Both the position numbers and the translations under genes were made by a program. This document shows, one piece after another, positions 1 through 63,670 of a stretch of DNA of 64,000 bases. The DNA is from Siniperca chuatsi (lineage: Eukaryota > Chordata > Actinopteri > Centrarchiformes > Sinipercidae), in contig NC_058055.1 in assembly GCF_020085105.1 (NCBI RefSeq), positions 29,269,372 to 29,333,371 of the forward strand. Direction: 5' to 3'. The notes beneath the pieces are model-generated. The model worked only from the letters and a program-made list of their open reading frames with translations. It was not told the origin of the DNA and ran no database searches. Within the stretch, counting starts at the first letter, position 1; each line of letters begins with the position of its first letter.

Positions 1-3000
1 TCTCAGGCTCAGACGACTCTGACCACTAATGACATCGTGATCTCGAAGCTGACTCAGATCCTGTCGTACCTCAGACAGGGAACCCGGCACAAGAAGATCA
101 AGAAGAAGGACAAAGGTAACGTTATTTACGGCTGCTGCTGCTTTCATGTCTGCTCAAGTTTTTTTTTTAATGGATCCTGTTTAGTGGTTGTGTGTGGTTG
201 CTATGGTGACCCTGTGGTGTCTCCAGGTGTTTGAGCTCAGCCCCGGCTCTCTGAACAGGAAACGAAGACGTTCGTTACATCACTTGCTGTGTCGTTGTTC
301 GCTCTGTATCGTGGTATTTGTCATCGCATGCCCCACCTTTGACAGTGAAACGCTAATAACTGTGTTTGTGTTTTAGGTAAACTGGATGAGAAGAGGGCTC
401 CTGAGGCTGATCTGAGGTCAGTTCACAACAACACAACATGTAGCTGTAACTCTGTTCTGTGTTTCAGCTTCAGTTAACTGTCACAGACAGAAAAGACACT
501 GTCTCCATCAGAGCGTCTCCGTTTGTGTTTCAGTATCTTTGACGACATCGGGGACTACATCCTGTCCTCCACCTCGTCCTCTAAACCTCCCAAAGACAAA
601 GAGAGACACAGGGAGAGAGACAGGGAGAGAGAGCGAGACAGGGAGAGGGAGAGGGAGAGAGAGGACGACAGCAAGAGCAGGAGACACAGCTACTTTGAGA
701 AACCACGCGGAGACGAACACCAGGTCAGACTGACGAGACGGGCGGGCGGTTGATTGTTGTTGTCGCTGTTCTTACTGTCTGAGACTAACTGACTGTCTCT
801 CTGTGTGTCTGCAGGTTGTGGAGGTGGATACAGGTAAATCAATTTATTGTTAAAAGCACATCAGAACTACAAGCTAAAACAAACTTTATTGACATGGACG
901 GGTACTATCTATTGTTAAAAATGAAAGGAGAAGCGGATCTCCTCTTCTTCCTGCGGTCTAGTCACACATCAGACAACACATCACAGTCCAGCACACCCAA
1001 ACACCAGCTCGCAGCTTAGCAAACCGCTAACAGGCACTTACACAACACGACAGATGGCTCCAAATACATAAACGCCTCACTTAAGGACATCTGTACTTTA
1101 ACTAAACCCAGCTTTACAATTATTACAGCGTTTCATATGAATATATAAAGCCTGAGTACACGTCACAACCTGACGTCACGTCTGTATAACGTCACAACAC
1201 GTCACAACCTGACGTTACGTCTGCATAACGTCACGACCTGACGTTACGTCTGTATAACACTAACCCTCACAACCTGACGTCACGTCTGTATAACGTCACA
1301 TCGTCTGTATAACGTCACATCGTCTGTATAACGTCACATCGTCTGTATAACGTCACATCGTCTGTATAACGTCGTGCCACAACCTGACGTTACGTCTGTA
1401 TTACGTCACATCGTCTGTATAACGTCACATCGTCTGTATAACGTCACATCGTCTGTATAACGTCGCGTCACAACCTGACGTTACGTCTGTATAACGACAC
1501 ATCGTCTGTACAACGTCACATCGTCTGTACAACGTCACATCGTCTGTATAACGTTGCGTCACAACCTGACATTACGTCTGTATAACGACACATCGTCTGT
1601 ACAACGTCACATCGTCTGTACAACGTCACATCGTCTGTACAACGTCACATCGTCTGTACAACGTCACATCGTCTGTACAACGTCACATCGTCTGTATAAC
1701 GTCGCGCCACAACCTGATGTTACGTCTGTATTATGTCACATCGTCTGTATAACGTCGCGTCACAACCTGACGTCACGTCTGTATAATGTCACATTGTCTG
1801 TATAACGTCACATCGTCTGTATAACGTCGCGTCACAACCTGACGTTACGTCTGTATAACGTCACATCGTCTGTATAATGTCACATCGTCTGTATAACGTC
1901 ACAACCTGATGTCACATGTAAAATTATTAAATGAGGAAGGAGATGCTGATTCATCTTGACTTATTTTCTGAATTAGTCACATTTTACTGCATTAAAAAAT
2001 GGGGCAAGATTTACTTTTGGTACATTTGTATTCAGCTTTTAAAAAACATTAAAATGGGGAAAAAGACAAACATTAATATCGGCATGTTAACCGTTAAATA
2101 TGCAGTCATGCTGCAGCCAATGGCGGCTCACATATGTTTCAGTCTGACGCAAAACGCTGTCCGGCTTGTTTTCCAGCTGTAACTGTTTCTGTGAATCAGT
2201 TGAACATTTCTTTAAATCCACACAGAAACATTTCACAGTGGTGGGAAACACGTCTCTGTCTGCGCAGCTCCTCCGACGTGACACTAAAGTCACCTGATGA
2301 ATTCTCTCTCACCTGTCAGGTCCTGGATCAGTCAGAGACCAGATCAAGATGATCACTGAGAAGTTCGCCGGAGCAGCAGGCAGCCAATGGCAGGGCCAGG
2401 AACCATATCCTTCTTTAACAAACACCTGCGGCCGTCAGCGGGCCGAGTGTCACATCTCACCTGTTGATGTCGCCTCAGTGAACAGTCAGGTGTAGTGTCT
2501 GCACACAGGTGAGCAGTGCTGTGCGTTCTGTTACTGCAGTTCTGTTCCTTAACCGGGTTGAACTGGTTCTCAGAGGAGAGACGGCGGCAAAGAACAGCTG
2601 GGAGATTTCTTCGGAGGATCGAACTCGTACGCAGAGTGTTACCCTGCTACGTAAGGCACACACACACACACACACAGAGAGACACACACACACACACATA
2701 CACACACACACACACATATAGACACACATACACACACACATAGACACACACACACACTCACATAGACACACACACACACACAGACACGCACGCACACACA
2801 CACACATAGACACATACACGCGCACACACACACACACACATAGACACACACACACACTCACACACTCACATAGACACACACACACACGCACGCACACACA
2901 CACACGCACACACACATAGACACACAGACACACACTCACACACACACATAGACACATACACACACACACGCACACGCACACACACATAGACACGCATACA

Positions 3001-3353
3001 CACACACACACACACAGACACACAAACACACATAGACACTCACACACACACACACGGACACACGCACACACATAGACACACACACATAGACACACACACA
3101 CACACACATAGACACACACGCACACACACACACATAGACACACACGCACACACACACACACACACACATAGACACACACACACACACATAGACGCACACA
3201 CACACACATAGACGCACACATAGACACACACACATAGACTCACTCACTCACTCACACGCGCACACACACACTCAGTCATAAATGGGTTAGTAGTTCAAAT
3301 CTGTGTGTGTGTGTGTGTGTGTGTGTGACTGTGTGTGTGTCTGTCTGTGTGTG

Positions 3354-3405
<52 letters not shown>

Positions 3406-5449
3406 CTGTGCGTGTGTGTGCAGGATGGACGACCTGGCTGTGGACAGTGATGAGGAAGTGGACTACAGTAAGATGGACCAGGTAACTACAGCTCCCAGCA
3501 TGCATCAGTGCTCTGTGAAATGTTTTCCCACCCAGATTCAACAGATGTGTTTCTGAAGTTGCTGATGAAGATCCTTTAAAACACCCGGAGACCGGCTGAG
3601 TCAGAGACCTGCTCCTCCTCAGAGTCCTAACTCCGTCAGGTCTGAACTCTCGGACAGGAAACTCACATCGAGTCGTTCAGCGCGACTCGCACGTCCAGAG
3701 GACGTCATCGTCTCTGACGTCCGTCCAGAATAAACCTCCAGAAACCAGCTGAGATGCCAGAGAAGAAAGCTGCTGCAGAACCTGCCTGAGAATCCTGCTG
3801 TTTCTAAGTTTCCTTCAGTCTCACAGTGATCCAGAGACAGCTGTCTGTCCGTCCACGGGTCCACTGCAGACAGGAGCTGCTGACTGCTGGTTCGGCTGCT
3901 CTGACGGGACAGACTGACGGCCGTCTGTCCGTCCACGGGTCGCTGTTAATTAAAACAGTAATAATAAGAATGAGCCGGGTTCTGCTTGAAGCCGTGATGT
4001 AACGTGACAGGAAGTGAGCGTTAACCACTTGTTTGTTGTGTTTCAGGGGAACAAGAAGGGGCCGTTGGGTCGGTGGGACTTCGACACGCAGGAGGAATAT
4101 TCAGACTACATGAACAACAAGGAGGCTCTGCCAAAGTACGCATGCTTTCTTTATCCCTCAGCTCTGGCTGGCAGGTTGTGTATTGACTTCCTGTGCAGAC
4201 AGGAAGTTCAGAGACAAAATAAGGGCGTGGCTCTAGCTGCTGGGCAACATGAGAGTGTGTTGGTGATGGAGTTTGTCCCTGCAGGGCTGCCTTCCAGTAC
4301 GGCATCAAGATGTCTGAAGGCAGAAAGACTCGGCGCTTCAAAGAGACCAATGAGAAGGCAGAGCTGGACCGCCAGTGGAAGAAGATCAGCGCGGTGAGAC
4401 GACGAAACATTCAAAGCTTTAGTTTGTTGCTCGCCGTCGGCTGAAACCCGAGTCTGAATCTGTTAAATCTGTTGTCTGACTTCACGAAGCGAACGGCGCT
4501 GACTGACTGACTGTCTGTGTTTCAGATCATCGAGAAGAGGAAGAAGATGGAGGCCGACGGGTGAGTGCTTCCTGTTTCTGTAGCTCATCATCATCTGCTC
4601 GGCCAATCAGGAGACAGCAGGCGCTCCTCGTCTGTTTGTTACCAACGTAAACATGGCGGCGTTCAGCTGATGTACGACTCAGAAGCTGTCTGTAAACAGT
4701 CGGTAAACGACCTGTAAACAGGAAAGTCTGTAAACAGGAAACAGTCTGTAAACGGGAAACAGTTGGTAAACAGCAAACAGTCTGTAAATATTCGGTAAAC
4801 AGGAAACAGTCTGTAAACAGGAAACAGTCAGGAAACATTCGGTAAACGGGAAACGGTCTGTAAACAGTCGGTAAATGGGAAACGGTCGGTAAACAGTCTG
4901 TAAACTGTCTGTAAACAGGAAACAGTCAGGAAACGGGAAACAGTCGGGAAACAGTCTGTAAACGACCTGTAAACAGGAAACGGTCTGTAAACAGGAAACG
5001 GTCTGTAAACAGGAAACGGTCTGTAAACAGTCTGTAAACAGGAAGCGGTCTGTAAACAGTCTAAACAGGAAGCGGTCGGTAAACGGGAAACGGTTGGTAA
5101 ACAGTCGGTAAACAGTAAACAGTCTGTAAACAGTCGGGAAACAGGAAACAGTCGGGAAACAGTAAACAGTCTGTAAACAATCTGTAAACAGTTGGTAAAC
5201 AGTAAACAGTCTGTAAACAGTCGGGAAACAGGAAACAGTCTGTAAACTGTCTGTAAACAGTCAGGAAACAGTCGGTAAACAGTCAGGAAACAGTCGGTAA
5301 ACTGTCTGTAAACTGTAAACAGGAAACAGTCTGTAAACAGGAAACAGTCTGTAAACAGTCGGTAAACAGGAAACAGTCTGTAAACAGGAAACAGTCGGTA
5401 AACTGTGTTTTTGTGTTTCAGGGTCGACGTGAAGAGGCCCAAATACTGA
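1..5449 (+). CDS. ik: IK / RED splicing factor, C-terminal half (11 exons; 5' end outside window)
   Basis: IK (RED) is a nuclear component of the spliceosomal B complex. Exons: 1-115, 377-416, 534-723, 815-833, 2320-2404, 2564-2650, 3424-3481, 4047-4135, 4285-4393, 4526-4560 and 5422-5449. They join in continuous phase to 284 codons plus TGA (5447-5449), about half of the roughly 560-residue family length. Seen in order: a conserved block reading [14 protein letters not shown]; the Arg-Glu/Arg-Asp repeat that names RED (exon 3, about codons 65-90); [42 protein letters not shown]; and the C-terminus VKRPKY. All introns are GT-AG except 2405-2563, which is AT-AC. The short 19-nt exon at 815-833 is supported only by phase. 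Introns hold long repeats, listed separately. Identity is very secure from the conserved C-terminal half; exon edges are my manual calls. Confidence 0.95.
1142..1922. repeat. 19-bp minisatellite in an IK intron, rich in ACGTCA
   Basis: Tandem copies of a unit close to CACATCGTCTGTATAACGT, interrupted by a higher-order variant containing CACAACCTGACGTYACGTCTG. The array lies in the 834-2319 intron. Full TGACGTCA octamers and many ACGTCA half sites recur in it. The remainder of the intron (834-1140, 1923-2310) shows no exon-like sequence. Confidence 0.93.
2405..2563 (+). other. Predicted U12-type AT-AC intron of IK
   Basis: The intron opens with ATATCCTTC at 2405 and closes with AC at 2562-2563. 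A TTCCTTAAC element lies at 2545-2553, putting the branch adenosine about 11 nt from the 3' splice site. These match the known U12 donor, branch point and spacing. No GT donor near 2404 keeps the frame, whereas using AT-AC joins GAA CC to T GGT and continues into the conserved QLGDFFG block. The intron is 159 nt. Confidence 0.88.
2655..3272. repeat. Long interrupted (CA)n tract in an IK intron
   Basis: About 600 bp of CA dinucleotides with recurring CATAGACA interruptions, starting just after the donor at 2651. The open frames across it on both strands are low-complexity Cys-Val or Thr-His strings and are not genes. Confidence 0.97.
3301..3420. repeat. (GT)n tract ending at an IK splice acceptor
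   Basis: About 115 bp of TG repeat in the same intron as the preceding CA tract. It runs directly into the CAG acceptor before exon 3424, where it serves as a pyrimidine-poor acceptor upstream region. Confidence 0.95.
4685..5402. repeat. Minisatellite filling the last IK intron
   Basis: Irregular tandem repeats built from AAACAGTCTGT, AAACAGTCGGT and AAACAGGAAACAGT modules cover most of the final intron (4561-5421). Long minus-strand frames through it are repeat artefacts. Confidence 0.93.
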
Positions 5450-5751
5450 AGACTTCCTTCCTTTGTTGTTTCCTTTTCTCCTTCCTCTGCTGCTGCCCAA
5501 CAGGATCAATATTGATCAGTTATTGACAAAATACAAGAAATATGCATGTATTGATCTGTGAAGTGATTATTAGTTTTTGTCTTATTGAAAACGTTAACGT
5601 GTAAACAGACGGAGGTCAAAGGTCAGACGATTAGTGAGACTTTGTGTCATTTAAACAATTTAAAGTTCAATAACTGGATAGTAACCCGATACCTGATGTT
5701 ATTGATTAGTTTGTGCTTTTGTTTTCTGAGAGGTTTGAAACATGAATCATC

Positions 5752-5757
5752 AATAAA
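5752..5757 (+). terminator. ik: IK polyadenylation signal
   Basis: AATAAA lies about 300 bp after the IK stop codon, giving a plausible 3' UTR of roughly 320 nt that ends before the LINE tail at 5860. Confidence 0.6.
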
Positions 5758-5861
5758 CATGTCAATGAAACGCACTGATCTCTTTGTTTTAATGCTGTTT
5801 GTCATCTTTACTGGATTAGAAGAATTCTATTTATTTATTATTTATAATTATTATTATTTAT

Positions 5862-6260
5862 AATTTATTTATTTATTCATACAGCACCAGTTCACAACAG
5901 AAGTATCTCAGTGCACTTTTCCTACAGAGCAGGTCCGAACTCTATAATATTATTCACAGAGACCCGACACATGCCACCATGAGCACTTGGCCACAGCGGC
6001 AAGGAAAAACTTCCTTTAAGAGGCAGAAACCTCGAGCAGAACCAGACTCGGGGGGGGGGACGGCCATCAGAGAGAGAGGGAGAAATCCACAATCTACCTA
6101 GAATTTTAAAATAATAATTAATGGTCGTGGTAACTAAGTGGAACTTCAACAGCCACATTAAGACCATTAAGTGGTTCAACATCTGATCTGGATCCCACTG
6201 GACACCTGGAGACCCTGGGGCAGACCCAGAACACACTGGAGGGATTCTGTATGTCATCAG
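5862..6260 (-). mobile_element. Tail-only L2-like LINE insertion
   Basis: Read on the minus strand, this carries the terminal module CTCGAGGTTTCTGCCTCTTA, then TTTTTCCTTGCC, then a motif near CATGGTGGCATGTGTCGGG. The same module ends the L2 copy at 63.6 kb and recurs at 45.8 kb. No ORF remains, so it is a severely 5'-truncated copy. 6260-6930 holds nothing further that I recognise. Confidence 0.75.
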
Positions 6261-7022
6261 GTCTGGGAACGTCTCAGGGTTCTCCAGGAAGAGGATGGAT
6301 GGATTTTGTTTATGTTACTGATGTAAATAAAGCTTTAACATACAACATTATACAGGTTTAAGTCTCCTGTTAGTCTCTGTATTAAAAGATCTAACCTGTT
6401 TTGTTGGGTGGGGTTGCAGGTTGGTTTATATTGGTATTGTACCTTTAACCACCTGGGACGGCAGTGATCAGAGGTGAAGAACCAGCCTGTTTTCTTACTT
6501 TTATGGATGAGTTCAACCTTTCAGTTCATACCACATTAAAGTCTGCAGAGCAAACAGAGACAACCGTTATCTGTGGACGTTAAAATTTCACCCTATCATT
6601 AATTTCTTAATGACATTATAAGAAGAAAGACTAAAATCTGTTCAGTGAGCTTTAACTCATTTCACACAAGAAGCGGAACTGTGCACAAAATCAAACAATT
6701 GAACTCTAACCTTATTACTCTAAATGTAAGTTAAAGGGAACTTAATTGTAAAATTGGTTGTTTTAGAGCTTAAACACTGAAATTAAAGAAATAAAGAAAA
6801 TCTAAAATGGCAGAAAGTAAAACTAATCATCTTATTTTAATTATTGAAACTGTGGTAGTTTTTAATTTTGCGGTTACATTATAGCGCCCTCTGCTGGCTC
6901 ATGTGAACATAGTAAATACAGAAATCAATCAGTCAGTCACTCAAAGAGTCAGCTGAGGCTTTAAAGTAAAGTAACAGAGCCAATAACAACAACTGTAGCA
7001 GCAGTTCTCGAGCAGGAACACG

Positions 7023-7408
7023 GGGGCAGCAGGTGGCCCACAACCACAGATCCAGACTCTGCAGGAACACGGGGCCGCAGGTGGCCCACAACCACAGATC
7101 CAGACTCTGCAGGAACACGGTGGCAGCAGGTGGCCCACAACCACAGATCCAGACTCTGCAGGAACACGGGGGCAGCAGGCGGCCAACAACCACAGATCCA
7201 GACTCTGCAGGAACACGGTGGCAGCAGGTGGCCCACAACCACAGATCCAGACTCTGCAGGAACACGGTGGCAGCAGGTGGCCCACAACCACAGATCCAGA
7301 CTCTGCAGGAACACGGGGGCAGCAGGTGGCCCACAACCACAGATCCAGACTCTGCAGGAACACGGGGGCAGCAGGTGGCCCACAACCACAGATCCAGACT
7401 CTGCAGCT
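7023..7408. repeat. Minisatellite of ~48-bp units (about 8 copies)
   Basis: The unit is close to GCAGGTGGCCCACAACCACA followed by GATCCAGACTCTGCAGGAAC and ACGGGGGCA. The last unit runs directly into LINE 3' UTR sequence at 7400. All six-frame ORFs here are unit translations. Confidence 0.95.
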
Positions 7409-8110
7409 CCGGAGGCAGAAATACCTGCTGAAAGCGACAGAAGGAGAGAGGAGAGAAACGAGAAAGCACAGAACTACGGGAGAGAGAAGATGTCGAGTTA
7501 GTAACATGCAGTAATGGGATAAAAATGCAAACAGATGGAGAGGGAGAGGAGGAGAGAGGAAAGAGGTGCATCATGGGAAGTCACCGGGCAGTGTAGGCCT
7601 ATAGCAGCATAACTAAGGAATGGTTCAGGACTCACCCAAGCCAGCCCTAACTATAAGCTTTATCAAAGAGGAAAGACTTAAGCCTACTCTTAAATGTGGA
7701 GATGGTGTCTGCCTCCTGAACCCAAACTGGGACCTGGTTCCACAGGAGAGGAGCTTGATAACTGAAGGCTCTGGCTCCCGGTCTACTTTTGGAGACTCTA
7801 GGAACCACAAGTAACCCTGCATCCTGGGAGCGCAGTGTTCTAGTCGGGTAATAAGGTATTATGAGATCTTTAAGATATGATGGTGCCTGACCATTAAGAG
7901 CTTTGTAGGTGAGGAGAAGGATTTTAAATTCTATTCTGGATTTTACAGGGAGCCAGTGCAGAGAAGCTAATATTGGAGAAATATGATCTCTTTTCCTGGT
8001 TCTTGTCAGTACAAGTTTCTGGATCAACTGGAGAGTCTTAAAACACTTATTTCAGCATAATGGAACTGCAATAGTCCAGCCTAGAAGTAACAAATGCATG
8101 CACACATTGT
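7400..8110 (-). mobile_element. L2-like LINE 3' end (end of ORF2 and 3' UTR)
   Basis: The minus-strand frame 8027-7647 encodes the C-terminus of a non-LTR reverse transcriptase protein, with HISPILASLHWLPVKSRI, ILLLTYKALNG and LLWNQVPVWV. Its 3' UTR (about 7400-7640) matches 55540-55760 in reverse complement. The 5' end is truncated near 8110. It is an inactive fragment lacking RT catalytic motifs. Confidence 0.88.
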
Positions 8111-9800: not shown

Positions 9801-11627
9801 CTAATTCCTGATTTTACGTATGAACCATTGACCGATTTCATGCCATTTAATGGCAAGTTTAGTTTTATTGGTCTGAGCATTGTAGAACATATCAGAGGTG
9901 TAGAACTCTCCATTATTATCTTTTATCATCTCGTCTATTTTATCCAGAAGGTGTTTAACCTGCACCCTGTTTCCTCTCTTTGTGTTGTCAAACACACAGA
10001 ATCTGTCCCCGCACCTGGAGACCAGATGTGACACATATCTGTTGGACTGGATCAAACTACCCATGGACCGGCCTTTTAGCTCATCTCCATGAGTGAAAAG
10101 GACCATAGTATACTTAGCAGCATCACTGCTGAAGAGTTTTGGCAGCATCTTCAACAGTTTGACTTCTGCTTCAGAGATCCTGTCTATCTTCACCACAATG
10201 ATGAAGGCGTGTGGTCCTGGATCAGCCTTTTCTACGGACTTCATGATCTGTTCAAACAGCTTTCTGGGAGACAGACGTTTTGCAGTGAATCCTGGGGTGT
10301 CCACCACTGTGACCTGACGACCCTCCACTGTGGCTGATTTAGTGACAGTCTTTGGAGTGACTGAATTAAAGCCACAGACTGATTCAAAGCGATCTGATCC
10401 CAGGATGGTGTTTCCTGATGCACTCTTGCCTCCTCCAGGTAGACCGAGCAGCACGATCCTCATGGGATCGTCAGGAGGATCGGACATCACTGAAGGAAAG
10501 AAAACAGAGAGACATCAGAAACATTCATTTTTAAAAATGTTTTTAATAAGTTTGAACGATAAAATATATGTACAATATTTAAATGAGAGAGCAGTTTGTG
10601 CAGGGATGTGCAAAAGTATGAAGAATAAGAATATTTGTAATGTGCAAGATAATCATCCAGAAGCAAAGTGAAGGAGTTTATAAACCTTTTCCTGCGTATG
10701 TGTGTTAATATATCTGCACAAAGGAATATATTAAATGTGTGCAGGAGGCGAAGGAGAGGAACATGTGTTTGGGGTACGGAGGATAAGAGAAGAAAATGGC
10801 ACGAGCAAGTAAAGAAAGGTTGAATAACAACTTGAGTGAAATCATGTACTTCCTGTTGTTTGGCTACAGTTCATGTGTTTGTTGTAAAGTGCTGTAAGAA
10901 CTGAGGGGAGACTGCCTCTCAGTCACATCGGTACAATGCTGATGATGGCTCTTGATTGCAGGCAATAAAAGATCTGCTGAGAATTTTAATATCGTGTCAT
11001 CTGGTATTTGAGTACACTGCTAATGAACTGATGTGCAGTCAGTAAATCTTGTGTATGAGATCATTACTCACCTTTTCTGAGGTGGCCTGACTTCTCCAGC
11101 AGCTCTCTGACTTGTGCCTGTCCACCATCTTTATTGTTGAACACATGATGTCTCCCTTCAAACCTTTCAACGAGTGGTGGAAGTAGACCATCTCGTTTTT
11201 CGTTGATGAAATCATCCAACGACGAGCTATTTAAGTTATCTCCTCCTGTGAAGAGCAGGTAACAGTCGTTGAAACACTGGTCTCCGATGACTTTGATAGC
11301 TGCCTCCACAGCGTTCTTCTGCTCGGTGGTGAATCGATCTATTTTAACCACCACCAGGAACAAACAAGGCCCGGAGGAGTTCAGCTCCTGACACTCGGTC
11401 TGACACGGAATCTCGGATCCAAATATTCCTGGAGTGTCGACCACTGAGATCAATCTCCCGAACACAGTTTCAGTTTCTTTAGCGATCTGTGTTGTCACTG
11501 AGTTGATGGATTGTTTTGACTCAAACGCTGGTCGTCCCAGGATGGTGTTTCCTGTAGCACTTTTACCAACTCCTGAGTTTCCCAGAAGGACGATGTTCAG
11601 ATCTGGATCCATGTTTGAGCAACGCAA
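9801..11627 (-). CDS. GIMAP/AIG1-family GTPase with two tandem AIG1 domains
   Basis: Two exons, 11627-11072 and 10489-9801, join in phase: AAA G at a GTGAGT donor, then TG ATG after a TTCAG acceptor. The product is about 414 residues. Domain 1 (residues ~10-180) has P-loop GNSGVGKSATGN, switch motif DTPGIFG and G4-like LLFTGGDNL. Domain 2 (~190-400) has GLPGGGKSASGN, DTPGFTA and VLFTHGDEL. AIG1/GIMAP proteins are septin-related GTPases of immune cells, often membrane-associated and acting as scaffolds. Tandem domains resemble vertebrate GIMAP8-like proteins. ATG at 11627 gives MRCSNMDPD; an in-frame ATG at 11612 is equally possible. Basic residues near the C-terminus (KWHEIGQWFIRKIRN) may contact membrane, but no transmembrane helix is evident. 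The two exons could also be read as separate genes, but the in-frame splice argues for one. Confidence 0.87.
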
Positions 11628-12009
11628 AACCTGCTGGAGACTGAAAGAGGTTAGAAAGTCTGAAAGGTATCTCTGGAAAAAGCCTGAAAAAAATGAAAAG
11701 TCTATAAAGTCTGACAGGTCATAACAGAGTCAGATGATCAGACCACCTGCTGTATTTACTGTCACAGTTTTCTGGGGCATTGAAGGATCATTGGTGACGT
11801 TTCAGGTTTCTCACTTTCAGTTTATCCTTCAAAATAAAACACGTAAAACACAATGCTCAAATAAATGCAGAGTGATTTGTATCTGTAAATCTGGATCCGT
11901 ATCTGCGCTTCTAATTTACATCACGTACATCATCATTTGTACATCAACTTAGCATTTTTCAATGTAAATGTATTTCTGAATCTCCACCTATTCGTGTGGA
12001 TCCTTTTGA

Positions 12010-23504: not shown

Positions 23505-25145
23505 AAAATTGAATCATTAAAGAAGCTCATGAAGTCGTTGCTACTGAGGGCTATAAGAATACATGGCTCAATAGAGCTGTGACTCTGTCAGCCTGGCTGC
23601 AGAGCTGAAAAGAAACCTGGGGTTGTTCTTATTTTCCTCTATTAATGATGAGTAGTAAGCAGCTCTGGCATTACGGAGGGCCTTCCTGTATCTTTTAAGA
23701 TTATCTTGCCAGACTAAACGAGATTCTTCCAGGTTCTTGGAACGCCATTTCCTTTCAAGATTTCAAGATGTTTGCTTTAATTTGTGGGAAAAGTGTCAGG
23801 TGTGTTGTGTGATAAAAGAGTATCAGCAAGAATGAAAGGAAAGGTGTTGAAGACGGTGGTGAAACCAGCGATGTTGGACAGCTTAGAGACAGCGGCGCTG
23901 AAGGAAAGACAAGAGGCAGAGCTGGAGGCAGCAGAGCTGAAGATGCTGAGGTTCTCTTTGGGAGGGACGAGGACGGACAGGATCAGGAACGAGGACATCA
24001 GAAGGACAGCTCATGTTAGATGTTTCGGAGATAAAGTCAGAGAGGCCAGATTGAGGTGGTTTGGACGTGTTCAGAGGAGAGACTGTGAATATATTGGTAG
24101 AAGGATGCTGAGGCTGGAGCTGCCAGGCAGGAGGTCTAGAGGAAGACCAGAGAGGAGGTTTATGGATGTAGTGAGAGAGGACATGAAGTTAACTGGTGTG
24201 AGTGAAGAGGACGCAGAGGACAGGGTTAGATGGAGGCACATGATTCGCTGTGGCGACCCCTGAAAGGGAACAGCTGAAAGGAAAAGAAGAAGACCATGGA
24301 GCTAACCTTCTTTGTTTTATTATCTTCTTTTTTAGAGAAGCAATAGAGTCAAATGTTGTTTGCAGTGAGCCTGCAGCACTATCAACTAGATGGTCAATTT
24401 GGGAGGGGCTGCGATTTGCACAGAAGACCTCTGTTATTTTGAGACATAACATTGAATTAAATGCAGATGGGATCGCTTCCTTAAATTTAGCCACAGCAAT
24501 ATCAGATAGACATCTAGACCAGGAGTTTTTGTGTTTTATACTCTCATATTAAATCGTTCACTAGTACAGCTTTAGATGACAGTGATCTGATGTTTAAGAG
24601 TCCACATTTAATTCTCCTATTTTGTTGTGCTATTTCAGTGTTTTTGTTTAGGTTTTTATGTACAAGTTTAATTTTATTAATTTAAGTGGTCGGGGGGCAA
24701 ACACCATCATTAAGGAGGTAGGTCCACTAATAAACTCGGTCAGACTTCTGGATATGAGAGATGCTCCATCCAAAGTAGGATAAATACTGTCTCTCCTAAT
24801 CAGACCAGGTCTTCACCAGAAAGTCCGGCACTTATCTCCAAAGCCGACATTGTTTGCTGGACACCACCTCGACAGCCAGCGGCGGCATGAAGACATGCGG
24901 CTAAACATGCCATCACCGGTCAGGTTTGGCAGGGACCCAGAGAAAACTACGGAGTCCGACATTGTCTTTGCATATGTACACACCGACTCAACATTAACTC
25001 TAGTGACCTCCGACTAGCGTAATCGGGAGTCGATACCACTGACGTGAAAGGATTCCAGCATTACACTATTAAAATCGTTTTCTTCCATATCTGCAGGAAC
25101 ATTGCCTTCTGCCTGTGGTTGTTCTAGCCAGTTAATTTTGGACTG
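23505..25145 (-). mobile_element. L2-like LINE, split by a nested element
   Basis: Minus-strand pieces 25145-24291 and 23788-23505 flank a foreign insert. The frame near 24494 reads FKEAIPSAFNSMLCL and IDHLVDSAAGSLQTTFDSI, matching 62260-62410 of the L2 copy at the right end. The 23788 side resumes with the equivalent of 62450-62530. It lacks the RT core. 25145-26260 shows no recognisable feature. Confidence 0.8.
23789..24290 (+). mobile_element. Non-LTR (RTE-like) ORF C-terminus, nested in L2
   Basis: The plus frame from 23784 encodes LRWFGRVQRRDCEYIGRRML, then GRPERRFMDVVREDM and WRHMIRCGDP, followed by a 3' tail with GAAAGGGAACAGCTGAAAGG. This C-terminal signature is widespread in animal non-LTR elements; I favour the RTE clade. 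The copy is strongly 5' truncated. Confidence 0.72.
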
Positions 25146-34816: not shown

Positions 34817-37800
34817 CTGATGAGAAAAACAACAAGAGACAACCTGTGATGTCACATGTATACCTGCGGTGAGCTCAGCCAATCAGAAGTCAGGAAATAT
34901 AAAAGTAAAAGTAAACATTTCTGTTATTTTGTAGTTAATTTAATAAAACTACAGCTAATATAAACTGATTAATTTCTAATTTTTCATCTAACATCTTTCA
35001 TTTTGAATTTTAATAGATTATCTTTATTAGGAGGGAAATAAATGTGTGTATGTTGCACACCTGTCTGCAGTCACCATGGTGATGATGTTTTCAGATGGAT
35101 CCATTTCTGAAAGAGAACATGAAACCACATTTGATGTTCAGAGATTTAATTCAGAGTATTAACATCAGCTTTTAAATCAAACTGATTCCAAACTTCAGTT
35201 TAGCCTCTTAAACCCCTGATTTCTCTACACGTCTATGTCCATGTTATAAAAAACATTTTTCCACACTGACCGTAACAGAAATATATTCTGGGTCAGTTAA
35301 TGCAGCGACCAGAACAAACATCAGTTCTCTATATAAAACAATGCTGTTTTCTTAGACTGTGACTGGACACTTAGATGAGAGACAATAATGACCCACACCT
35401 GTGCTGTAACGTGTTGAGATGTTTTACCTGAACTTGGTTTCTCTTTAACAAACTAAACAGAACTTGTTGTTCTGTCCTGTCACATTCTCACATTGATTTC
35501 AGATCCATTTTAATAGCAGTAAACAGGCTCAGATCATCTGCATAGAGACGAACTTGGTTCGTAATATGTTAGTAACGTGTGTGAACAGTAGAGGACCCAG
35601 AGTGGAGACTTGTGGGACTCCATTATCCGGTCTGATGAGAAGCATGTGGATTTTAAATGGGGCCCATATTTCAGCTTATATTAAAATAAAAATTAAAACA
35701 TTTTAGATTTTTAGATGTTTTTCATTATTTAAAAAAACAATAATAAAACAAGTGCAAACACTGTAGTTCGACCTTTTATTTTACAGGGAAACATTCAGCA
35801 CCTCATTTTGTCTCCATTTATCTCTTTAGTTTGAAACCTTTTTGATCCAGTGCTCGTTGTTCTTGCAGCAGTGCTTTACAAACTTGAATATACAGTAAGT
35901 TCGGAAGGATATGTCAGCTGACTCCTGCTGAGATCAGCTTTTATTTGTTATAATTACTCATAATTCTCAGATAGTCTTTAAAATAATAAACTCACACAGT
36001 GAAGCGTGAAGCTGACGTTTGCTTCAGATTTTCACTGAAACATTTCTGTGTATGAGGTGTGAAGAAGAAAAAGACAGTGTTACCGTGGCGACTGAGCGCG
36101 CCCAGTTCCATCCTCAGAGTCTGCTCTGTGTGTCTCTGGATGGGATGAACACTGACTCCGTCCTCCCACAGTAACAACCAGGCATCAGAATAACTAGAGG
36201 CTCCGCCCACTTCAATGACAAACACTTTACTGACAGCGGAAGCACCGCCCACCTCTGCATAGGATACGCCCCCTGGGAGAATCACCTGGAAACATGAACT
36301 CAGGTTATACTGATGACCAGAGCACTCACACGTTTGTACTTAAATACTTGTGAGGACCGTCGCTGGAATAACAACCCTGAACCTGAAACATCACATCCAG
36401 ACAACTCTCTGGATTGGCGAGAGGATGAAGTGCACTATGCAATGGGACTTTAAACAATAATTCTTTCCATGGTGATGAAATAAAACACCTGACCCTGTAA
36501 CCCTCTCAGTTCATAGTGGTGTAATATTGGAAGTTTATGCAATAAATGTGCAGGTCTGCTGAAAACCCACCTTTACCTGTCTGACTGTGCAGATAATAAT
36601 ACTCAAACCATGAAATTGAAGTACTGTTGGACACTGAAGAAGACAAAATGTCTGAATTGACTAAAAGGAACAACTTGATTGATTTGGATGTGCTGTGTTT
36701 TCTTCTAGATTTATTTCATAACAGTCAAATCTGAATGTTTATATTCTGTTTGCGTGATATCAAACTTCCCTACATCAATAATTGTAGAACAGAACTAAAA
36801 AATGCTAATGTATTTAAAATACATATTGTATATTAATATTGTTATTATTATTCATTTATTTTACATTGTGACATCTATATGTGCAAATATGTAATTTTCA
36901 GAATGAAGTCTGGTGATGTCTGCACCCAGGCGAACTAACTAGAAGTCTACAGAGAGTCATCCTCTGGCTCTTTATGGATGAGGACAGACCTCAGGATTTG
37001 CTGTTTTCCTGGAACAGTTGGATTCATTTTAAATGTCGAACCAGGACCCTAAACTGAATCTAAACCTGATTCTAATCTGGACCTTAAAACCAGACCTGAA
37101 CCTTCAAACACACATCTGAAGATGAAGACCGGACAACATGTCCTCACTTCTTTAACGTCAAAAACTCAGAGTGGTCCTCATAGTCCAATAGACACGCACA
37201 CACTCACACACCCGGGTTTACCTTCAGTATGTGGACCAGGTGAGTCAGCAGCCCCTCCTTGTTGTCAGCAGCACAGATCAGCTGATCGCTCAGCGTCACC
37301 ATCTCAAACTCATGAGCTGGTCTGAAAACACGAAGTGGGAAATATAATATTAGAAGTAGTGTTAGTAGTATTTACAGGAAATGAAATTGATGAAGTGAAA
37401 CTGTAGATCCTCACTGAGAGCATCAGTCTTCACACACAGGCTAGAGTCTGCATGGTGTTTGTTTTCTTGTGTCAAAAGACTTTAAAGACTTTAAATGTAT
37501 ATAGAAACTGGTTATGTCAATTACATAAGTTAATAACTTAAACTCTGTTGTATTACTCCTTAATCATCTTAATCATTACCTTCATTGATTAATTACAAAG
37601 TTTGTCTCCTGTGCAGTTTTCTCCCCTCAGTAGATTCATGTGTTCATCTGGAGCTGCTTTTGCTTTGTAACGATGATAACGTGATATAACTTGATGTTTA
37701 GTGAAACGTGGAGTTAATGGTGCTGTGAAATGACACTCGTGTTTCTTCTTGTAGTTAACTGATATTTAAGAGAAGGAATACTGACTCCGACTTTTACTGA

Positions 37801-43500: not shown

Positions 43501-46500
43501 ATTTTTCACAATTGAGAATGACTTCCGGATGGGAGCCGAAACGTCTTGATTCTGAAAACAGTGTCCAGACGACTACGACTGAAACCTTTTCTATTTCAAA
43601 CCAAAGATTTCTAGTTTATCAGCAAGGTATGTTTCCATGAAACAGCATACGAAGAGTTTATTCCCATTGGTATACTTGGACCGGTTCCGTGATTTATTTT
43701 CTTTAGTATCAGACAAACTGGCTGCAGCGTTCTGAATTAACTGTAATTTGGTAAATTGGTAGCCCATTAAAAGTGGATTTACAGTAATCCAAGCGACTTT
43801 TAATGACAGGATGTTTCTGTGTTTCAGCATCAAGATGTTTCTGTGAAGAAATAAAGATGTTTTTGTGACCTTGTTAAAATGATAAAAACATTTATGTCTG
43901 AGTCTAAAATCACCTTTAGATCTGTAATTTATTAATCTGATTGGTCAGACAGTTTCACTTGATCTACTTCCAACCCTGTTTTGTGCTAATTTAGTTTGCT
44001 TTACTCTTCCATTTATTGATATCAGTGAGACAGATAATAATAGTATTTAAATAACTGGCGTTGTCAGGGTAGACAGAGATATACAGTTGTGTATCATCTG
44101 CATATTGGTGTATTTAACATCATGATAACTGACAATGTTGCCCAAAGGGAGCAGGTATAAAGAAAATGGGATGGGGCCCAGAATGCTTACCCAAACCCAA
44201 TGCACATTAATCAACATCACTGTAAATGTGCCAGTGTTAGCCAGAAGGCTCATTTTCAACTGTTTAACAGAGTATAAAGTAAACTACAAAATGATAGATT
44301 GGTAATTTTGATGATGCCTCATAAGTCAAAGTTTGTTGTTCAATGTAACTAAACCCATATTTAGAGTGTATATAATATACACTATAAATGTCACAGAACA
44401 GTATTTTACCACCATCTTTCACTAACAATAGGACTCAGGATGCAAACCTGTCTTTCTGCTGTCAGAAGTCTGAAACTTTGACTGACCTACCAACTCTGAC
44501 CTATTACCTCTAACCTCTGGTTTTATCTAAGCTGCTGTGTGTAGATAAATGTAACGCTTCATTCATCTAAAAAACATTGCCTCTGAACATAATCCTGGCA
44601 GAAATTATGTTTGACACCAAAACTTCATTGGAAAATAAATTAGTGATACATAAACACACATGACGTGAACACAGGATTAGCTTCCGTTAGCTGGTACCTG
44701 CACAGGCCTGACAGATGACCAGCAGCAGGTTGACCGACGCCCACTCAGGATTGGCCGAGCCGCAGTCACCGCACACTTTGTTGTCGGGGTTTTCCCAGAG
44801 ACGCAGTGCCACCTGGCTGCAGGACAGAGCACTGCGAATAGATGAGGACAGAATGTCCAACCAGATGGACAGATCCTTCGAAGAATCAACAGACAGGCTG
44901 CAGACAGGGAGCGGGGCCACAGAGAAAGAGAGGGCGGGGCCAAAAAGGGGAAAAGAGGGAAGAACAGGGAGTGGAAAGACCAAGAAAGAATGAAAGTTAG
45001 GACTTAATGTCACTTTACCAAAGGACAGCAACAGACAGACGGACAGACAGGTGTGTACTTGAAGTTCTTGTATGGAGTGATGAGGGTAAACGAGTGTTTT
45101 CCTGTAGATTTGACTGTGGCCACGTTCAGGGGGACAGAGAAGGAGGCGATGCCCAGCTGGAAGCCCTCCTTGTTGGGGTAAATCCAGAGGTCATGACCCC
45201 AAACCGCGGCATAGGCACGGCTCCGCGGGTCCTTGATGGCGATTTGTCCGTGGAGTTCTGGGGGGGTGGGGCTTGGCTGGCCTCGAGATGCCAGCAGAGA
45301 TGTGACCCAACCTTCACGAACATCTGAGAGATGAAAAATCCATTAAGAAGAATCATCAGATACTGCAGTTACTAGACACAGTTTCAACGTGGAAACTGTT
45401 ATTCACAATTTCATCACCTGTCGATGCGACAGCAGCAGTATTCTTACCATCACTGTGAGCCATGAAGTCATAATGTTTCTTCCTGAAGTAAACAGAGAAT
45501 CTGCCTTTGTCCTGTTTCTTCACGTTGGTGATACTGGAGACATGAAACAGCAACTCACTGAACCGATCCTGGTCAACAAAACAAACACACCCATCACTGT
45601 ACTGACTGACAGACAGACAGAGATAGACACAAACAGGTATATAGAGAGAGACAGGTAGAGAGACACTGACTTACCGTCCGCTTTTTCCACAGAGACATGA
45701 GCTGTCCGTCAAACGTTGCCCATAAAACATTGTGTCTGTTAGAGAGAAAACATGTCATTTGTTTATCTGTCTCTCTGTCTGCCATCAATCCATCCATCCT
45801 TCCACTCATCCATCCATTCAATTCAATTCATTTCAGTTTTATTTATACAGCACCAATTCATAACAGAAGTAATCTCATTGCACTTTTCCTACAGAGCAGG
45901 TCTAGACCGAAGTCTTTATAGTATTATTTACAGAGACCCAACAAATCCCACCATGAGCAAGCATTTGGCCACAGTGGCAAGGAAAAACTTCCTTTGAGAG
46001 GCAGAAACCTCGAGCAGAACCAGACTCGGGGGGTGGGGGGGTGGGTTGTGAAGGAGGGCGAAGCACGATGCAAGTTCCACCTAGATTTTTAAAATAAATC
46101 CATCCATCCATGATGATGATGATGTTACCTGAAGCCCTTCCAGACATCCAGCCAGCTGGATTGGACCACGGCACTCTGCTGAGTTGAACTCCCACTGACC
46201 CCCTTCTTCCTGGACACTCGAATAGTGGCCGCTCTGCAGGACAAACACACTTTAACAGACTGAAGGTGTTTTCTTCCTTATCCCAAATTCAGACTTGCAT
46301 TCTGGGTAAATTTAACTTGTATATTTGAAATCTGGAGTCGAAAATCCTGAGAAGGGGAAGGAAGACTGAGACAAGCAGCGCTGAATCATGAATACAACCT
46401 GTGAGACGAGGTCAACAGAAACACTTGTACACCTGCTATATTCACTTTATTGTAAGTTTAAAACCAAATCTGCCTCCGTTCATTTATGTATATTTATTGA

Positions 46501-55794: not shown

Positions 55795-56640
55795 AAATAC
55801 AATTTTGTACTGTGACTTTCTAAATAACAATAGTTTATTTGAGGATTTTCAGTCAGGGTTTAGAGTGCATCATAGCACAGAGACAGCACTGGTGAAAATT
55901 ACAAATTACCTTTTAATTGCATCAGACAATGGACTTGTCTCTGTACTTGTCTTGTAAGATCTTAGTGCTGCGTTCGACACCACTGACCATCACATCCTAT
56001 TACAGAGACTGGAACATGTAATTGGCATTAAAGGAGCCACACTAAGCTGGTTTAAATCCTATCTATCAGATCAATCTCAGTTTGCACAAGGTTCTGTGCT
56101 TGGACCGATTCTCTTCACCTTATATATGCTTCCTCTAGGCAATATTATTAGGAAACACTCCATAAACTTTCATTGTTATGCAGATGATACCCAATTATAT
56201 CTATCGATCAAGCCAGATGAAACTAACCAGTTAGCTAAACTTCAAGCATGCCTTAAAGACATAAAGAGTTTCCCTATGGGGATCAATAAAGTATTTCTGA
56301 TTCTGATTCTGATTCTGATGATCTGCAACTTTCTGATGTTAAACTCTGACAAAACTGAAGTTATTGTACTTGGCCCCAAACACCTCCGAGACACATTATC
56401 TAAAGATATAGTTGCTCTAGATGGCATTGCCCTGGCCTCCAGCACCACCGTAAGGAACCTCTGAGTTATCTTTGATCAGGATTTATCCTTTAACTCCCAC
56501 ATGAAACAAACTTCAAGGACTGCCTTCTTTCACCTACGTAATATTGCAAAGATCAGGCACATCCTGTCTCAAAATGCACCCTGCATTTGTTACTTCTAGT
56601 CTGGACTACTGCAATTCCTTATTATCCGGCTGGAGAACAC
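55795..56640 (+). mobile_element. L2-like LINE reverse-transcriptase fragment (rearranged)
   Basis: It matches 62975-63545 ([38 protein letters not shown]) with a deletion after SYLSDQSQ. A ~45-bp retroposon tail is inserted at about 56270-56319. It then continues into the block found at 54912 and ends near 56635. Confidence 0.87.
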
Positions 56641-61934: not shown

Positions 61935-63670
61935 AGTTTTTATCAAGTTTAGTCCTTAAAACAGATGAAGTAATTATTGTAGGTGATTTCAATATTCATG
62001 TGGCCGTTGAAAATGACAGAGTGTCAGAGTGTACATGAAGCCATTCACTGTTTTAACCACACCCTCAACCTTGTTCTGGTATATGGCATTGAAATTGAAC
62101 ATTTAATAGTCTTTACACAGAATCCTTCATTATCGGAGCATTATTTAAAAACTTTTGAACTCCTATTACTGGACTACACGCCATTAGGCAAAAACTCCTA
62201 CTCTAGATGTCTGTCTGATATTGCTGTAGCTAATTTTAGCTAAATTTAAGGAAGCAATTCCATCTGCATTTAATTCAATGCCATGTCTCAATATAACAGA
62301 GGACTCCTGTGCTAATTTCAGCCACTCCCAAATTGATCATCTTGTTGATAGTGCTGCAGGCTCACTGCAAACAACACTAGACTCTATTGCCCCTCTAAAA
62401 AAGAAGATAATAAAACAAAGAAAGTTAGCTCCATGGTATAACCCCCAAACCCACAAATTAAAGCAAACATAATGAAAACTTGAAAGGAAATGGCGTTCCA
62501 ACAACCTGGAAGAATCCCGTTTAGTCTGTCAAGATAGTTCTTTAATGATTCAATTTTGACTATTAGAGAAAAAATTCATCACATCCTGGCCTCAACCAGT
62601 ACCGATTTATCTTCAAACACAGGAACCTTAGAAACAGCTGTAAAACCTGATATATATTTAGACTGCTTTTCTCATATTGATCTTCTTCAGTTGACTTCGA
62701 CGATTAATTCATCTAAGCCATCAACCTGTCTCTTAGACCCCATTCCAACTAGGCTGCTTAAAGACGTTTTACCCTTAGTTAGCACTTCTTTACTGGACAT
62801 GATCAATATGTCTTTATTAACAGGCTATGTACCACAATCCTTTAAAGTAGCTGTAATTAAACCTCTTCTTAAAAAGCCCACTCTTGATCCAGGGGTCTCA
62901 GCCAACTATAGACCTATATCTAACCTTCCCTTTCTCTCTACGATCCTTGAGAAAGCAGTCGCCAATCAGTTGTGTGACTTTCTAAATAACAATAGTTTAT
63001 TTGAGGATTTTCAGTCAGGGTTTAGAGTGCATCATAGCACAGAGACAGCACTGGTGAAAATTACAAATGACGTTTTAATTGCATCAGACAATGGGCTTGT
63101 CTCTGTACTTGTCTTGTTAGATCTTAGTGCTGCGCTCGACACCACTGACCATCACATCCTATTACAGAGACTGGAACATGTAATTGGCATTAAAGGAGCC
63201 GCACTAAGCTGGTTTAAATCCTATCTATCAGATCGATCTCAGGTTGTACATGTTAACGGTGAGTCCTCCGTGCACGCCAAAGTTAGTCACGGAGTTCCAC
63301 AAGGTTCTGTGCTCGGACCGATTCTATTTACCTTATATATGCTTCCTCTAGGCAATATTATTAGGAAACACTCCATAAACTTTCATTGCTATGCAGATGA
63401 TACCCAATTATATCTATCGATCAAGCCAGGTGAAACTAACCAGTTAGCTAAACTTCAAGCATGCCTTAGAGACATAAAGACCTGGATGATCTGCAATTTT
63501 CTGATGTTCAACACTGACAAAACAGAAGTTATTGTACTTGGCCCCACTCTCTCTCTCTGTCTCCCAACCCAACCGGCAGCGGCGGATGGCTGCCCACCCT
63601 GAGTCTGGTTCTTTCCTTGCCACTGTCGCCAAGTGCTTGCTCATGGTGGGATTTGTTGAATTGAATATAG
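61935..63670 (+). mobile_element. L2-like LINE, 5' truncated, internally deleted
   Basis: It starts inside the endonuclease domain (DEVIIVGDFNIHV), passes a linker (IDHLVDSAAGSLQTTLDSIA), then an RT ORF at 62556-63602. RT motifs: [41 protein letters not shown] (usual A-F-D changed to A-L-D), [14 protein letters not shown] and [12 protein letters not shown] with the catalytic YADD. After VIVLGP the sequence jumps straight to the 3' tail (GGTTCTTTCCTTGCCACTGT), losing the C-terminal part. 63670-64000 shows nothing further. Confidence 0.9.

Follow-up and report, generated by a model that had tools for sequence, protein, structure and literature searches.

The fifth intron of the ik (RED) gene in the 64-kb stretch of DNA analysed here (the window), which we, like the sequence-only reading, take to come from a fish, is very probably an ordinary U12-type AT-AC intron, as judged from its splice signals and its position in the reading frame. 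The 3′ half of the gene lies at the beginning of the window (Table 1). Joining its exons yielded a 283-residue open frame with the C-terminal end ...DVKRPKY followed by the stop codon. The product matched residues 267-557 of the 557 residues of human Protein Red (E 2.1e-135), and Pfam detected RED_C (2.8e-48) together with RED_N (2.1e-9), of which only the end (profile positions 201-234 of 234) falls in the window. These matches supported the identification of the gene as IK/RED, to which the sequence-only reading had also assigned it. GT-AG ends were found in nine of the ten ik introns in view, and AT-AC ends only in the fifth one. A search for IK relatives in viral_contigs and genome_contigs with a 66-residue IK query returned 4 and 39 pattern matches, respectively, of which none was confirmed.

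Table 1. Features of the ik gene and of its predicted AT-AC intron (positions in the window)
Feature	Position	Strand	Description
3′ half of ik (RED) gene	1-5449	+	11 exons, 10 introns; frame open to the stop codon
ik exons 1-4	1-115, 377-416, 534-723, 815-833	+	exon 1 cut by the window start
ik exons 5-8	2320-2404, 2564-2650, 3424-3481, 4047-4135	+	
ik exons 9-11	4285-4393, 4526-4560, 5422-5449	+	
Exon 5′ of AT-AC intron	2320-2404	+	ends GAA CC, phase 2; aligned to human IK GPGSTKELIKSINEKFAGSAGWEGTE
Predicted U12-type AT-AC intron	2405-2563	+	159 nt, phase 2; U12 signals and IK frame
U12 5′ splice site ATATCCTT	2405-2412	+	exact, full consensus
U12 branch element TTCCTTAAC	2545-2553	+	exact; branch A 2552 (or 2551)
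AC acceptor	2562-2563	+	first AC or AG 3′ of the branch element
Exon 3′ of AT-AC intron	2564-2650	+	starts T GGT TCT CAG; aligned to human IK
Candidate weak in-frame GT-AG alternative, cag/GTGTAG...TCTCAG	2490-2573	+	donor score 0.5; predicted isoform 25 residues longer
Candidate strong U2-type donor, cag/GTGAGC	2509-2514	+	score 7.03; 3′ of the in-frame stop

The strings ATATCCTT and TTCCTTAAC are the U12 consensus sequences for the donor and the branch element, respectively, and both occur in the fifth intron without a mismatch. The branch A at 2552 is 11 nt from the last base of the intron (11-12 nt if the A at 2551 is counted as an alternative). Thus the near-perfect U12 donor, branch element, and AC acceptor with an 11-nt gap that the sequence-only reading described were all found as stated. 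Throughout the 64 kb, ATATCCTT occurred once per strand (on the plus strand at this donor and on the minus strand at 35912), and TTCCTTAAC occurred once on the plus strand, at the branch element listed in Table 1, and never on the minus strand. With a spacing of 40-3000 nt, this was the single case on both strands of an exact pair with a fitting AC; once one mismatch per motif was allowed, a second AT-AC pair appeared at 23747-24494. In 20,000 first-order Markov surrogates modelled on 2320-2650, the exact pair never arose; it was likewise absent from all 20,000 when up to one mismatch was allowed in the branch element, and was present in one when up to one was allowed in the donor and in two when up to one was allowed in each. 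It was confirmed that the exact U12 motif pair at 2405-2563 is not due to chance. U12-type introns lack a polypyrimidine tract before the 3′ end; in the ik intron the pyrimidine fraction there (0.62) was inside the 0.50-0.75 range of the nine GT-AG introns, so that such a tract is not clearly missing and this feature did not help in assigning the class. The intron fold was mildly stable (z -1.75), with 12 of 200 shuffles equally stable, and an Rfam scan of the window gave no match at the gathering threshold.

Removal of 2405-2563 joined GAA CC to T GGT in phase 2 and restored the IK frame. The sequence-only reading had held that no other removal preserves the frame, and this claim was refuted by 82 choices that were stop-free and in frame, had GT-AG, GC-AG, AT-AC, or AT-AG ends, and were at least 59 nt in length; wider limits, with GT-AC ends included, gave still more in-frame choices. 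When the 82 were aligned to human IK, the AT-AC choice 2405-2563 was the best (score 188), and the runner-up was AT-AG 2405-2575, which uses the same donor (185). Three choices reached 181, namely, AT-AC 2387-2563, AT-AG 2405-2578, and GC-AG 2431-2580, while the best GT-AG choice, 2447-2578, scored 178 and has a very poor donor. Protein alignment therefore gave the AT-AC choice only a slight preference, and the decision in its favour came from the two long U12 motifs at their observed spacing rather than from the frame.

Minor introns favour short distances between the branch point and the 3′ end. If the same U12 donor were joined to an AG acceptor, giving an AT-AG minor intron that ends at 2575 or 2578, the distance from the branch A at 2552 would be 23 or 26 nt, versus 11 nt for the AC. 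Although both ends are in frame, align to human IK with scores close to that of the AT-AC choice, and would belong to a known minor subtype (PMC8280824, partial text), we consider such an intron highly improbable. Removal by the major spliceosome alone, either with GT-AG ends lying within the gap or as a U2-type AT-AC intron, appeared scarcely credible. GT-AG pairs that keep the frame do exist within the gap, and the major machinery removes some AT-AC introns (PMC2831892, partial text); nevertheless, the 15 best-aligning in-frame GT-AG choices had donors scoring at most 0.5, on a scale of approximate position frequencies that ranks sites only roughly, and alignments of at most 178. Among the GTs of 2320-2575, only that at 2509 had a U2 donor score above 3, and it is located 3′ of an in-frame stop. 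Furthermore, the U2-type AT-AC introns of sodium-channel genes carry G at +5 (PMC2831892, partial text), whereas +5 is C at the 2405 donor, which makes a U2-type AT-AC intron unlikely; the exact U12 branch element does not fit such an intron either.

U2-type sites nevertheless overlap the U12 sites, comprising donors at 2490 and 2509 (scored on the same rough scale) and a TCTCAG acceptor at 2573, whose usable AG at 2572-2573 is 10 nt past the AC. Compatible with the U12-type AT-AC reading, a nested U2-type intron may compete with the AT-AC intron in a twintron, and the IK isoform or level would then be set by how the two machineries are balanced. We regard this as possible, though rather unlikely, and the donor at 2509 might be a chance occurrence. 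Its score tops those of all nine GT donors of ik in view (0.35 to 6.18); equally strong sites number 10 on the plus and 9 on the minus strand of the 64 kb, that is, 0.024 expected per 159 nt. Given this strong donor and the AG at 2572-2573, another ik product may arise alongside, and because the donor follows the in-frame stop, its use would lead to premature termination. The in-frame donor at 2490 is weak, yet not below the weakest GT donor of ik; however, the extra residues of the isoform that it would produce are missing in human IK, and the alignment score was 163 versus 188. The nested intron 2509-2573 is only 65 nt long. Among the 18 human twintron genes in Table 1 of PMC3564746 (partial text), at least three are RNA-processing genes (NCBP2, ESRP1, and HNRPLL), whereas IK is not included in that table; CENATAC and SRSF10 employ competition between U12 and U2 sites, which bears on how much of a splicing factor is made (PMC8329584, partial text).

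The nested 65-nt intron, together with the role of IK in short-intron splicing, also suggests a feedback loop, in which a regulatory twintron would sense IK: a dead-end U2 product would be favoured when IK is high, and the productive AT-AC form when it is low. The minor spliceosome would then set the rate, while removal of 2509-2573 would leave a premature stop. Upon SMU1/RED loss, retained introns peak at a donor-to-branch distance of 50-70 nt, and the shorter the distance, the greater the dependence (PMC6692369, partial text). For 2509-2573 this distance would, by estimate, be near or below 50 nt, and the intron is perhaps too short for splicing. Such regulation seems very improbable.

Taking 2405-2563 as an ordinary U12-type intron, we would expect U11/U12 to bind at ATATCCTT and TTCCTTAAC and the minor spliceosome to ligate position 2404 to 2564; U6atac acts at minor introns after U11/U12. 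Expression of ik would hence need both splicing machineries, because GT-AG ends are seen in the nine other introns in view. Upon retention of the AT-AC intron, an in-frame TAG is encountered at 2493-2495 on the plus strand, 155 nt upstream of the 3′ end of the following exon (2650), and unspliced ik mRNA is therefore expected to be kept in the nucleus or degraded by NMD. Since retention leads to this stop, formation of ik mRNA should require the minor spliceosome. AT-AN introns depend on CENATAC, the depletion of which affected 92% of A-type versus 24% of G-type minor introns (PMC8280824, partial text). In addition, short minor introns are retained to a greater extent (PMC6717393, partial text), as is also the case in zebrafish zrsr2 mutants (PMC9501576, partial text).

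Failure of minor splicing, especially of CENATAC-dependent AT-AN splicing, would accordingly be predicted to lower the amount of IK. IK (RED) and Smu1 promote activation of the B complex, mostly on short introns (PMC6692369, partial text), and a lower IK amount may in turn weaken the splicing of short introns by the major spliceosome. Through this chain, ik could link the two machineries, as the sequence-only reading suggested: if splicing follows the prediction, losing minor splicing, above all through loss of CENATAC, would decrease IK and impair short major introns. Links of a similar sort have already been published for SNRPE, fly SF3A1, and SRSF10. A drop in IK could also contribute to phenotypes that are common to ik and minor-spliceosome loss. 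Ciliary defects have been reported both in zebrafish ik mutants (PMC10612314, partial text) and when ZCRB1, a gene of the minor spliceosome, is lost (PMC13216214, partial text), and the available portions of these two papers do not draw a connection between the ik and minor-splicing phenotypes.

Repeats are present in other ik introns. In the next intron (2651-3423), a (CA)n tract (2657-3271) begins just after the donor and a (TG)n tract (3302-3420) ends just before the acceptor, and the two can pair as a long hairpin, drawing the splice sites closer. Folding of 2564-3481 gave an MFE of -265 kcal/mol (z -6.03), with none of 20 shuffles as stable, and the centroid structure retained the hairpin only partly. 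Zebrafish (AC)m-(GT)n introns are reportedly spliced without U2AF2. With the AT-AC intron on its 5′ side and the CA/TG intron on its 3′ side, exon 2564-2650 would sit between two unusually recognised introns. Minisatellites occupied 621 of 1486 nt of one ik intron (1283-1903; 19/91-nt units) and 692 of 861 nt of another (4712-5403; 11/18/47-nt units), and at least three of the ten ik introns contained repeat arrays in the analysis, which covered 1000-7600. A further tandem repeat with a 49-nt unit (8.1 copies, 96% matches) was located at 7012-7406.

Of 222 open frames in the window, 10 were scanned for domains, and several neighbouring features were identified. Downstream of ik, two AIG1-family GTPase open frames, presumably GIMAP-type, were found on the minus strand at 9804-10514 and 11067-11729, and an open frame carrying the start of an ArfGap domain was found on the same strand at 44690-45190. 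On the plus strand, RVT_1 reverse transcriptase stretches, which we take to be probably of the LINE type, occurred at 55958-56461 and 62538-63599.

The literature searched, available in part, did not name ik as a minor-intron gene; its two-letter symbol is unsearchable, and U12DB, MIDB, or IAOD may well list it. Likewise, the term "U12" was absent from the searched portions of the IK/RED papers PMC6692369, PMC8015194, and PMC10612314. According to Table 2 of PMC7367187, AT-AC introns make up 26% of human U12 introns, 22% of those of zebrafish, and 12% in each of two pufferfish, so that the earlier description of them as a small minority was roughly right, the figure being 12-26% in these species.

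When compared with known U12-type AT-AC (A-type) introns, the ik intron is alike in its donor, branch element, AC end, and branch-to-end distance, and no distinguishing trait was seen, although it is short at 159 nt. SmE is a core Sm protein common to both spliceosomes. Its human gene, SNRPE, likewise has a minor intron within a spliceosomal-protein gene, and that intron has been reported to show higher retention than the major introns on either side of it (PMC6717393, partial text). SmE serves both machineries, whereas IK/RED has been described for major-spliceosome B complexes (PMC6692369, partial text). Drosophila SF3A1 is also a core splicing-factor gene with a minor intron, but the fly intron has GC-AG ends and is absent from the human gene (PMC2831892 Table 2). 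Known twintrons, in prospero and the 18 human genes, have an AT-AC intron with U2-type sites at the same place, as in ik; the prospero forms differ by 29 residues and the ik forms would differ by 25 if the U2 sites of ik are used. Finally, SRSF10 and CENATAC are, like ik, splicing-factor genes that would need the minor machinery to yield their product; a review describes both site sets as being used in them (PMC8329584, partial text), whereas in ik such use would be a prediction. Both this intron class and the occurrence of minor introns in splicing genes, such as SNRPE, fly SF3A1, and SRSF10, are thus already known, and ik would add one example.
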